From positions 3,658,001-3,722,000 of the forward strand of contig NZ_CP041656.2 in assembly GCF_007290395.2 (NCBI RefSeq): a DNA stretch of 64,000 bases. The letters are read 5' to 3'. Below, one piece after another: positions 7,933 through 11,397 of this stretch. How positions within the stretch are numbered: position 1 is the first letter of the stretch; every line of letters begins with the position of its first letter. Under the pieces are notes generated by a model. The model was not told the DNA's origin. It was given only the letters and a program-made list of their open reading frames with translations, and did not search any database. A program made the position numbers and the translations under genes. This DNA comes from Bradyrhizobium cosmicum. Lineage in GTDB: Bacteria; Pseudomonadota; Alphaproteobacteria; Rhizobiales; Xanthobacteraceae.

Positions 7933-8018
7933 CGTCATTGCGAGCGAAGCGAAGCAATCCAGAATCTATCCGTTGAGGCAGTCTGGATTGCTTCGTCGCT
8001 TCGCTCCTCGCAATGACG
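7933..8018. repeat. Palindromic intergenic repeat, family A
   Basis: An imperfect inverted repeat of about 86 bases. The left arm reads CGTCATTGCGAGCGAAGCGA and the right arm ends CTCCTCGCAATGACG, with AATCCAGA/TCTGGATT as inner arms. It sits between two converging genes, where it could also work as a bidirectional transcription stop. Repeats of this type are dispersed in many Bradyrhizobium genomes. Confidence 0.8.
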
Positions 8019-8021
8019 AGG

Positions 8022-9218
<1,197 letters not shown>

Positions 9219-9261
9219 GTCGAACTCCTCTGGGGGCGGGTGGAATCGGGGTGCGAAAAGC

Positions 9262-9294
9262 AGAAAGGCCGCACCTTGCGGGTGCGGCCTTTCT
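9262..9294 (-). terminator. Attenuator terminator ahead of argD
   Basis: A perfect 14-bp stem (9281-9294 pairs with 9262-9275) closes a 5-base loop. On the minus strand it is followed by T-rich sequence ending in TTTT. It lies between the leader peptide stop and the argD start, so it would end transcription before argD unless disrupted. Confidence 0.8.
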
Positions 9295-9303
9295 CGAGAA
9301 CTG

Positions 9304-9325
9304 CGCTGAATTCAGTGCTTCAGCG
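9304..9325 (-). promoter_or_regulatory. Leader hairpin overlapping leader-peptide stop
   Basis: CGCTGAA (9325-9319 on the minus strand, holding the last Arg codon and the stop) can pair with TTCAGCG (9310-9304) over an 8-base loop. A ribosome stalled on the terminal Arg codons would block this pairing. That would be expected of a pause or anti-antiterminator hairpin in an attenuator. Confidence 0.5.
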
Positions 9326-9412
9326 GCGTCGTCGGACATGGCGCACCCTCTCGTCGTCGCGGAAGCGACGGCGGAGCATTTCGGTGCGCTGATGGGTCCG
9401 AGCGTTGATCAT
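9320..9412 (-). CDS. Arginine-rich leader peptide (30 aa)
   Basis: ATG 9412 to TGA 9320 encodes 30 residues, 12 of them Arg, ending in His-Val-Arg-Arg-Arg-Arg-stop. Arg clusters also occur at residues 14-16 and 18. The frame lies directly between a good promoter and a strong terminator in front of argD. This is the classic layout of a translation-coupled attenuator sensing charged tRNA-Arg. The predicted transcription start is within a few bases of the ATG, so the leader may be translated from a leaderless transcript, as reported for the trp leader of Sinorhizobium. No Arg attenuator of this kind is known to me in this group; function is inferred. Confidence 0.72.
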   Translation of the reverse strand: MINARTHQRTEMLRRRFRDDERVRHVRRRR

Positions 9413-9420
9413 GGGGCGCG

Positions 9421-9450
9421 GCAATACATGCCAATGGCAGGGCTTGTCAA
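9421..9450 (-). promoter_or_regulatory. Sigma-70-type promoter of the argD leader
   Basis: On the minus strand a perfect -35 TTGACA (9450-9445), an 18-base spacer and a -10-like TATTGC (9426-9421). The start point would fall at about 9414, at or just before the leader-peptide ATG. Confidence 0.6.
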
Positions 9451-9488
9451 GCGGGCGTTTTGCGAAACACCCGCCCGGCGTGCATCGG

Positions 9489-10130
9489 TCAGGTCAGATG
9501 CGCGGCTTCCCCGGCGTCTTCGTCGCCCCAGTCCGCATCGGCAATCGCGCTGTCGATTAGCTCGCCGCGCAGCAGCTTGAGCGGCGATTTCCAGTACAGC
9601 GCGATGTTGTGGAAGGGATCCGTCAGCACCTTGAACGCCCACACCAGCCCGGTGGTGACGTCGCGCGTGACGAACAGCTGGAGCATGCGCGCAAGCCCGC
9701 CGCCGATGCCGATCGCGAGCCAGAGCGCGCCGACATGGCGGACGAAGTCGAAGCGGTCGGTGGGAAGATCGAACAGCCCGAACAACGTGGGATAGGCGTA
9801 CAGCGCGATCGGCGCGCTTCCCCAGACCAGCAGCAGGACGATCTTGCGGGTCTGGTTGTAGCCGACCTTGACCGCTTCCTTGTAGTCGTTGCTGACGTCG
9901 TTGACGGCGTCGTAGCCATTCGGCTCGAAGAAGAAATGCCCGGTCTGCCGCGTCAGCATCGCGAGCCAGCCGACGATGCCGGCAAGCGCCGGGTCCTTGA
10001 AAAGCAACGCATAGCAACCGAGGAAGATCACGGCACTGATCAGGTGCAGCGTCTGGTTGACGGTGCTCTGGTGGTAAAAGCGGTAATCATCGAAGCGCTG
10101 CGTGCGCAGCATGTTCGAGAGGTGGCTCAT
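9489..10130 (-). CDS. Mpo1-like (DUF962-type) membrane protein, tentative
   Basis: 213 residues with four or five hydrophobic segments. Two His-containing motifs recall the Mpo1/DUF962 family: HQSTVNQTLH (H-x4-N-x3-H) and GHFFFE (H-x3-E). In yeast Mpo1 these are iron-binding residues of a 2-hydroxy fatty acid dioxygenase. The rest of the protein is not clearly similar and is longer than usual, so the family call is a resemblance only. It is a single gene, divergent from nothing nearby, upstream of the argD leader. Confidence 0.5.
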   Translation of the reverse strand: MSHLSNMLRTQRFDDYRFYHQSTVNQTLHLISAVIFLGCYALLFKDPALAGIVGWLAMLTRQTGHFFFEPNGYDAVNDVSNDYKEAVKVGYNQTRKIVLLLVWGSAPIALYAYPTLFGLFDLPTDRFDFVRHVGALWLAIGIGGGLARMLQLFVTRDVTTGLVWAFKVLTDPFHNIALYWKSPLKLLRGELIDSAIADADWGDEDAGEAAHLT

Positions 10131-10239
10131 CCTCGTTCCTCGCTCGCGTTGAAAAGCAGCTGAGAGTTAGGACGAGTCCGTGACCCCTGCGTGAATGCAA
10201 TATAGTGTCACATTTCCCGCGCGGACGTCGCAGCGCGGA

Positions 10240-11397
10240 TTAATCGACGCCGTAATGGGCGAACACATCGGCGATGCCGGCGTTAATGGCCCTGGCGGCC
10301 GCAATGTCCCGTTCAGCGCCGTCGTTGTCGCCCATCTTCCGCTTCGCAAGTCCGCGCCCGTAGAGCGAACTGTCGAGCTGCGGCTTGGTGCCCAGCGCCG
10401 CGTCATAATCGGCAATCGCCGCGTCGAGATTGCCGAGCTTGAGATGAGCGAGGGCCCGGCTGTCGAGCGTATCAGGGTCGTTGGGGGCCATCCGCAGCGA
10501 CTGGTCGCAATCGGCCAGCGCCGCCTCCAGGCGACCGAGGATCGCGCGGGTGAAGCAGCGCGAGTTGAATACGTCGGCACGGTTGCCATTTGCCTTGATC
10601 GAACGATCGTAGTCCTCCAGCGCCAGCACATACTCGTACGTATCGAAATACATGTTCCCGCGCGCATAGAAATCGCGGTCGTTGTTCGGGCTGAGCTGCA
10701 GCGATTTGGCGAAGTCGGCCAGTGCGCGGGGGCGGTCGCCACGGTCGCGGAAGACGCGCGCGCGGTTGCCGTAGGCCGGGCCGTAGTTCGGGTCGAGCTT
10801 GATCGACAGGTCGAAATCCGCAAGAGCGCGGTCGTCCTGGCGATGGTCGCGATAGGCGGTGCCGCGATTGAAATAAGCCAGCGCGAATTTCGGATCGAGC
10901 TTGATGGCCTGGTCGTAATCGGCCATCGCGCGCTCGTACTCGTTCTTGTCGATGAGCGAGTTGCCGCGGTTGTTGTAATAGAGCGCGTCGCGGGCGTTCA
11001 GTCGGATGGCGCGCGTGTAGTCGGCAATGGCATGATCCTTGTCGCCGAGATCGTCATAGGCGATGCCGCGATTGTACCAGAGGTCTGAATCTTTCGGATC
11101 GAGATCGATGGCGCGGTTGAAGTCCGCCAGGGCGCGCTCGGCATCGCCCTTGCGCCGGAACATCTCGCCGCGATTGGCGAGCGCATGCACGTCGTTGGGG
11201 TCGGCTTTGAGCACGGCCGAGCAGCCGGTAATGCGCTGGTCCTCGCTGCTCCCGTCGTCATCGGCGTAACACTATTTCTGCAACTGCGCGGCCGCCGGGG
11301 ATCGCGCGGCAGCGGGGGTCGACAGCGCGAGCAGGGCCATCGCGGCGCCTATTGCCGACAGCTTGAAGAAAATTCCTGACGTTTGATCGTGTTTCAT
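10240..11397 (-). pseudogene. TPR protein with signal peptide, interrupted by in-frame amber codon
   Basis: From ATG 11397 the minus strand encodes a signal peptide (AAMALLALSTPAAA) up to Lys41, then a TAG at 11274-11272. The same frame then continues without shift: a Cys-rich pre-repeat segment, GTG 11214, and nine tandem 34-residue TPR units of the NRGxAYxxxGDxxxAIADYxxAIxLxP type, ending at 10240. Either a CAG-to-TAG type substitution has killed the exported protein, or a shorter 324-residue cytosolic form starts at GTG 11214, or there is readthrough. Intact relatives are periplasmic TPR proteins of unknown role. Confidence 0.75.

Follow-up and report, generated by a model that had tools for sequence, protein, structure and literature searches.

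Can arginine serve as the signal of a transcription attenuator? The question is raised by the DNA ahead of argD in Bradyrhizobium cosmicum, where a short, arginine-rich reading frame is followed by a terminator. Leader-peptide attenuation is textbook knowledge for Trp, His, Leu, Ilv, Thr and Phe, and arginine is the textbook case of control by ArgR. Here we analyze this locus within a 64,000-nucleotide stretch of the B. cosmicum genome (the window), and propose that the argD leader is very likely a ribosome-mediated transcription attenuator that senses charged tRNA-Arg. A sequence-only reading of the same DNA had suggested an Arg attenuator, and this interpretation gains support from conservation, compensatory stem changes and recurrence, as far as sequence comparison can tell. 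No description of an arginine attenuator before argD was found in the literature searched, i.e. keyword passages of open-access main texts among the matches listed (PMC4842269, PMC10117765, PMC2965389, PMC1262725, PMC5082802, PMC4997734, PMC4603805, PMC1183508 and PMC2659441). Within that scope, arginine as the amino acid specificity of a ribosome-mediated transcription attenuator is new here.

Architecture of the argD leader

All features described in this section lie on the minus strand of the window. The presumed controlled gene, argD (8022..9218), encodes an acetylornithine transaminase of the PRK03715 type (NF002985; 655 bits versus a cut-off of 568), which is 94-95% identical to the proteins of the nearest named Bradyrhizobium loci. 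Elsewhere, the genome, a single contig of 7.27 Mb, encodes a further ArgD-like protein that shares 44% identity with that of the window.

The promoter that had been proposed, TTGACA-N18-TATTGC, is present on this strand, with the -35 element (9445..9450) read directly and the -10 element (9421..9426) placed after an 18-nt spacer, 8 nt before the ATG. Among the 72 distinct leaders of close relatives described below, TTGAC is found at the same place in all, and the spacer measures 18 nt in 69. The promoter is absent from the output of a consensus scan because TATTGC does not end in T. The leader frame MINARTHQRTEMLRRRFRDDERVRHVRRRR (9320..9412) extends from the ATG at 9412-9410 over 30 codons to the TGA at 9322-9320. 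In agreement with the earlier count, 12 of the 30 codons specify Arg, four of them consecutively before the stop (codons 27-30, CGA CGA CGC CGC, 9323..9334). The most likely sensor run, as judged from the stall scan and from the conservation of Arg, is formed by codons 14-16 (CGC CGT CGC, 9365..9373).

Two further elements named in the sequence-only reading were confirmed, namely a CGCTGAA...TTCAGCG hairpin that overlaps the stop (9304..9325; arms 9325-9319/9310-9304), which 67 of the 72 distinct leaders form in their lowest-energy structure, and a perfect 14-bp intrinsic terminator before argD (9262..9294; arms 9294-9281/9275-9262), with a T-rich tail reaching to about 9256. A consensus scan returned two terminator-like sites in 8000-11000, the argD one included, versus 2.0 expected in shuffles; hence the weight of the terminator rests on its stem length and conservation rather than on the scan. 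An RRR frame followed by a terminator was detected in 3 of 688 overlapping 370-nt stretches on both strands of the window, and two of these three represent the argD site.

As had been claimed, the frame is complementary to the terminator, with codons 22-25 (AGGGTGCGCC) matching its CGCACCC. Region 2 (GGGTGCGCC, 9340..9348) would partner either region 1 in the off state or the terminator 5' arm in the on state, where the antiterminator uses region 3 of that arm (GGCCGCACCC, 9280..9289) according to folding. Absent from the earlier reading is an anti-antiterminator, in which codons 5-10 pair with codons 22-27 (CGGAC:GTCCG and GCGCACC:GGTGCGC). Its outer stem joins CGGAC (9396..9400) to GTCCG (9333..9337), is backed by folding, and is pairable in 37 of 37 aligned sequences. 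The middle stem, with GCGCACC of codons 8-10 as the 5' arm (9383..9389), derives from folding, and other leaders use other bases at this point. In the apical helix, codons 15-16 form the 5' arm and GCGACG (9355..9360) the 3' arm, with double changes at two pairs.

No Rfam family, T-box or other known riboswitch included, was detected in the window at the gathering score. Arginine T-boxes sense tRNA-Arg charging on arginine genes by binding the tRNA directly, without a leader frame. Their existence is documented in passages of PMC1262725.

Conservation and covariation among close relatives

Conservation of the Arg run and of the stems across relatives had been set beforehand as a test of the attenuator, and both are kept, with compensatory changes. 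The leader is recognizable in 63 of 80 ArgD-anchored loci, taken from the best 80 ArgD matches. A search of the family located window-type argD in 14 of 149 genomes, and 12 of the 13 loci besides the window carry a leader of the close type, the 13th (L109) having a different Arg-run leader. Together with the window, these 63 and 12 loci form a close-type set of 76 loci with 72 distinct leaders, which was picked after inspecting the sequences. The set leaves out L062, which has no leader frame, L067 and L109, which have another leader type, and L071, L073-L084, L087 and L088, where the leader is distant or missing; three leader-bearing loci of the same genus (L116-L118) are outside every count.

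Counted from the stop, positions -17, -16 and -15 encode Arg in 69, 72 and 68 of the 72 distinct leaders, respectively, and the C-terminal part R.VRR is likewise kept (R 72, V 72, R 72 and R 68 of 72), counts that do not represent independent events since close-type leaders share ancestry. Synonymous and non-synonymous counts are uninformative in the leader because the stems constrain the same bases. The -10 element lies 5-8 nt from the ATG in 72 of 72 leaders. This position supports a predicted transcription start at or next to the ATG, i.e. a leaderless message, which the sequence-only reading had raised as a possibility. In passages of a dRNA-seq study of B. japonicum USDA 110, 320 starts are placed 0-10 nt from annotated start codons; the main text of that study contains no 'argD', 'leader peptide' or 'attenuat'.

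In L062, from a metagenome bin, the terminator is kept and the leader frame is replaced by other sequence directly upstream, perhaps through an insertion or an assembly joint.

Covariation was assessed in an alignment of 37 diverse sequences out of the 72 distinct leaders, and compensatory changes back the apical, stop and terminator helices. Taken together, the outer and apical helices show 96.8% pairing and five double-change cells, versus at most 62.4% and one cell in slid controls, and the stop hairpin and terminator together are 92.5% paired with ten such cells, versus at most 51.9% and three cells. By itself, the terminator helix reaches 94.8% pairing over the 37 sequences, and two of its pairs show double changes. 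In the antiterminator core, pairing amounts to 86.1% and double-change cells number four, but one slid control has a higher covariation score (0.079 versus 0.045), and the core's number of double-change pairs is matched by 280 of 500 shuffles. When region 2 and region 3 were swapped among 22 distinct combinations, only 18 of 10000 permutations, which ignore kinship, gave a mean duplex energy as good as that of the true pairs.

Alternative folds and the modeled stall

For the window leader, the computed folding energy is -75.8 kcal/mol (z = -5.4), and none of 200 shuffles folds as well. In this structure the frame forms one long hairpin, with outer CGGAC:GTCCG, middle GCGCACC:GGTGCGC and apical CGTCGC:GCGACG helices. 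Per-sequence folding was used for the relatives, as RNAalifold gave a poor consensus on the nucleotide alignment, probably because codon gaps are misplaced. A hairpin of at least 18 pairs inside the frame, along with the terminator, is found in 72 of 72 distinct sequences. The outer stem is part of the lowest-energy fold in 67 of 72; the stems are not identical throughout, and a few leaders differ.

To represent a stalled ribosome, the RNA was kept single-stranded as far as 9 nt beyond the RRR run, with the 3' arm of the terminator absent. A long antiterminator is then predicted in 72 of 72 leaders, joining GGGTGCGCC with GGCCGCACCC and carrying the stop hairpin at its tip. This pairing is usually prolonged, as the next stretch pairs with a conserved TTTTCGAGA-like stretch, which would explain why sequence between stop and terminator is conserved. 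The energy of the stalled state averages -29.7 versus -21.4 for shuffles of the linking segment, and in 68 of 72 leaders no more than 2 of 40 shuffles attain the leader's own value; the antiterminator suggested earlier as a possibility has the backing of the model, by energy. Pair counts instead of energies exceed the shuffles in only 34 of 72. Between frame and sequence beyond the stop, 16-25 pairs form in the modeled stall, a broad count that can include pairs of the stop hairpin; pairs between frame and terminator 5' arm only have a median of 12 versus a shuffled mean of 4.4.

As the modeled A-site moves along the frame, the gap between antiterminator and terminator reaches its minimum over codons -24 to -13 (counted from the stop; medians of 8.0-11.4 kcal/mol), a wide block that includes RRR (-17 to -15) together with non-Arg codons. 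The median rises to 15.6 at codon -11 and, between codon -10 and the stop, to 18.7-19.7; in the window leader, codons 6-18 have gaps of 5.1-9.0 kcal/mol. The terminator is favored at equilibrium at every stall position, so antitermination would have to be kinetic, with the antiterminator forming first. When no ribosome is present in the model, the median advantage of the off state is 30 kcal/mol. In 64 of 72 leaders, the distance from the RRR run to the first base of region 2 is about 16 nt. A ribosome on the C-terminal run would, according to the model, cover region 2 and favor termination, and the presence of this run is a poor fit and a puzzle.

Recurrence of Arg-run leaders in other clades

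The strongest evidence for the predicted attenuator is the recurrence of different RRR or RRRR leaders before the same kind of argD. In 385 genomes from the class, eight have window-type argD, six of them outside the family, and five of these six carry Arg-run leaders (MLNLANRNRRRRSPAALARAR, MKKLNTLTNITSLRRRRS, MIRTATLRRRRHMHPLPGPRGRAHGHRIR, MSNCSHNIASRRRAFN and MSPRTRIRVSRRRAFV). At the sixth locus (L111), the scan found no RRR frame with a terminator. No T-tailed terminator was detected by scan at L114 (MSNCSHNIASRRRAFN) and L115 (MSPRTRIRVSRRRAFV). Downstream, both loci contain the stretch CGACTGTCGCCGAGAGGCGGGGG, which lacks a T tract, and an intrinsic terminator may not be the means of control there.

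Among 398 genomes of the phylum, the gene is present in 33. A wider scan required an ATG-initiated frame of 8-50 codons that contains RRR and has a terminator behind it, the RRR criterion having been set after seeing the sequences. It was passed by 14 of 44 loci outside the close type, versus 0.055 expected from shuffles. Seven of the 44 (L129 and L133-L138) belong to family f216, presumably the Burkholderiaceae, and four of them are matches that also occur among the 73 Burkholderiaceae-type loci treated below. As these four are counted in both sets, 10 of 37 is quoted for the rest, versus about 0.04 expected. Three pairs of loci (L067/L110, L074/L123 and L075/L131) likely represent the same species twice. 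In gene-interior stretches, an RRR frame with a terminator was found in 0 of 304.

In f216, the gene is present in 98 of 120 genomes, and 73 loci were read, two of which (L136 and L165) come from one genome. An RRR leader, e.g. MNRIQSELRRRRSPLP, was identified at 56 of the 73. The 17 misses include a masked start codon (L182) and two leaders with RR only (L193 and L194), and at several others argD follows close behind another frame, as seen by eye. By the criteria used, 17 of the 73 Burkholderiaceae-type loci and 30 of the 44 other argD loci thus have no leader. A T-rich terminator is found in all 54 distinct Burkholderiaceae leaders, and folding predicts 7-15 antiterminator pairs in each, a number obtained without shuffle control. 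Region 2 contains GGCU or CGGC in 53 of 54, its first base lying a median of 18.5 nt beyond the Arg run. In 42 of 45 distinct frames, 6-9 nt separate the ATG from the end of a -10-like hexamer upstream, so the Burkholderiaceae leaders, too, look leaderless. Across clades the Arg run is common, and length, flanking residues and distance to the stop vary widely.

Five loci (L074, L075, L123, L126 and L131), taken as Zetaproteobacteria from the named records L074 and L075, have longer leaders, of about 40 codons, in which the Arg-rich motif is limited to RRA(R/H); a terminator with a T tail precedes argD.

Arginine codon choice

CGA is poorly read by the inosine anticodon. Across the 172 run codons of the 45 distinct Burkholderiaceae frames, 47 are CGA and none CGG, compared to 6 CGA and 39 CGG among the 552 Arg codons of 29 argD genes. 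CGA opens the run in all 45 of these frames and at 10 of 12 other loci, where one CGG occurs among 43 codons. In the close type, CGA accounts for 105 of 410 run codons, versus 0 of 18 Arg codons of the window argD. The choice among synonymous Arg codons hence looks selected, which points to decoding. High attenuator sensitivity has been argued, on theoretical grounds, to need a particular synonymous codon (passages of PMC1183508). The CGA codons of the window leader are located in its C-terminal run, not in the presumed sensor. This run starts CGA CGA, like the runs of other clades.

Proposed mechanism and alternatives

We propose that the argD leader would operate as follows. Transcription would begin at the leader ATG or beside it, and a ribosome would load on the 5' end of the RNA without a Shine-Dalgarno sequence. 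When arginine is plentiful, the ribosome would reach the stop, and region 1 (codons 5-10) would re-pair behind it with region 2 (codons 22-27), leaving region 3 free, such that the 3:4 terminator halts transcription before argD. When arginine is short, the ribosome would stall on Arg codons 14-16 and cover region 1. Region 2 would then pair with region 3, with the stop hairpin stacked inside, before the 3' arm of the terminator is made, and the antiterminator thus formed would allow transcription of argD. In an untranslated leader, 1:2 would form and argD would be off.

An alternative to a sensor of tRNA charging is a ligand-sensing arrest peptide, similar to SpeFL or TnaC, where free arginine, ornithine or a polyamine stalls the ribosome and thereby sets the RNA fold. 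Arrest peptides keep specific tunnel residues, and arrest-peptide features are found in the speF leader. The C-terminal R.VRR kept in the close type would suit such a role; however, only the Arg run is common across clades, with length, flanks and distance to the stop all variable, and the selected-looking choice of CGA points to decoding, so we regard an arrest peptide as improbable. It is more doubtful still that the terminated leader mainly acts in trans, as a small RNA or an Arg-rich small peptide, with attenuation of argD a minor effect. The predicted leaderless, terminated transcript and the conserved peptide do resemble rnTrpL as described in passages of PMC7298713 and PMC10117765. Yet no second full copy of the leader turned up in a DNA search of the genome (loci being argD-anchored), the peptide is not conserved between clades beyond its Arg runs, and the alternative folds are a cis feature. 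Action in trans might be an extra function instead of a competing explanation.

The frame might also be a coincidence, kept solely through RNA stems in front of what would be the terminator of an upstream gene. Several close-type Arg codons do sit in paired stems, so that conservation of frame and of stems is not fully separable there. Against this, all 72 distinct leaders have a promoter-like TTGAC...-10 pair ahead of frame and terminator, and the leaders of other clades, built on other stems, still encode Arg runs; of the readings considered here, we find coincidence the hardest to credit.

A ribosome-mediated attenuator on argD would share with the trp, his, leu, ilv, thr and phe attenuators the codons for the pathway product, the 1:2/2:3/3:4 logic and the intrinsic terminator before the gene (passages of PMC1183508 and PMC2659441). 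It differs from them in its arginine specificity, its apparently leaderless start and, in the close type, the location of both 1:2 arms inside the frame. Sinorhizobium meliloti rnTrpL/peTrpL is likewise a small alphaproteobacterial leader with an AUG start that is terminated to a small RNA, features that are predicted from sequence for the argD leader, but it has Trp codons, precedes trpE and has reported trans functions (passages of PMC10117765). The Pseudomonas aeruginosa carAB operon also has a leader peptide, possible attenuation and a role in feeding arginine synthesis; there, however, attenuation is reported to respond to pyrimidines and arginine to act at the transcriptional level, and it is no argD leader (passages of PMC4997734). 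The Salmonella speF leader is arginine-related and controls a neighboring pathway, but its target is ornithine decarboxylase (passages of PMC6386406).

Other arginine genes and the absence of ArgR

ArgR (TIGR01529) is absent from the window genome, with E. coli and B. subtilis as positive controls; overall, 34 of the 35 genomes searched, leader-bearing or not, lack it. Leader holders lack it in 17 of 18 cases, the exception (G713) having only two adjacent Arg in its leader, and so do 17 of 17 other genomes, 16 of them without an RRR leader by the criterion and one (G575) outside that leader check. A specific link between ArgR absence and the leader was rejected, as ArgR is equally missing in genomes without leaders. 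The lack of ArgR nevertheless means that another arginine control is probably needed, although this absence is not specific to leader holders. If the argD leader reads tRNA-Arg charging, it would explain how arginine synthesis is controlled in proteobacteria without ArgR. CGA would then make the codon-choice theory of attenuators (passages of PMC1183508) testable in nature, and the same design in different sequences would be a good model for attenuator evolution.

A DNA search of the genome returned no second full copy of the argD leader, and a weak match led to a second, leaderless-looking Arg leader, MINAATILFARRRRRSLAVWAVDRV (L214:3103-3180, corresponding to G000:C1:4066002-4066079, minus strand), with TTGACG...TATAGC directly before its ATG. 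It precedes an FMN_bind_2 gene (PF04299), an argC of the TIGR01851 kind and another argC. In the family, 40 genomes have the FMN_bind_2 gene, and an RRR leader occupies this place at 28 of 30 loci, the two misses being one RRHR and one at a contig end or wrong offset; the argC_other motif lies downstream at 19 of the 30. A broader proposal, to which we assign roughly even chances, is that Arg attenuation represents a widespread layer of control in Proteobacteria without ArgR, acting on argD and, in Nitrobacteraceae, on an FMN_bind_2-argC operon as well. It would have arisen or been rebuilt many times from a leaderless start, an Arg run, opened outside the close type by the rare, poorly decoded CGA as a sentinel codon, and a region 2 located about 16-20 nt downstream.

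In the window genome, the upstream stretches of argG and of the second argD copy were inspected and contain no Arg leader. Before the second argD copy (L002), a GTGCCGCC/GGCGGCAC hairpin whose tail is rich in T comes immediately after a promoter-like TTGACA...TAAGAT, and may be a further early terminator on an arginine gene.
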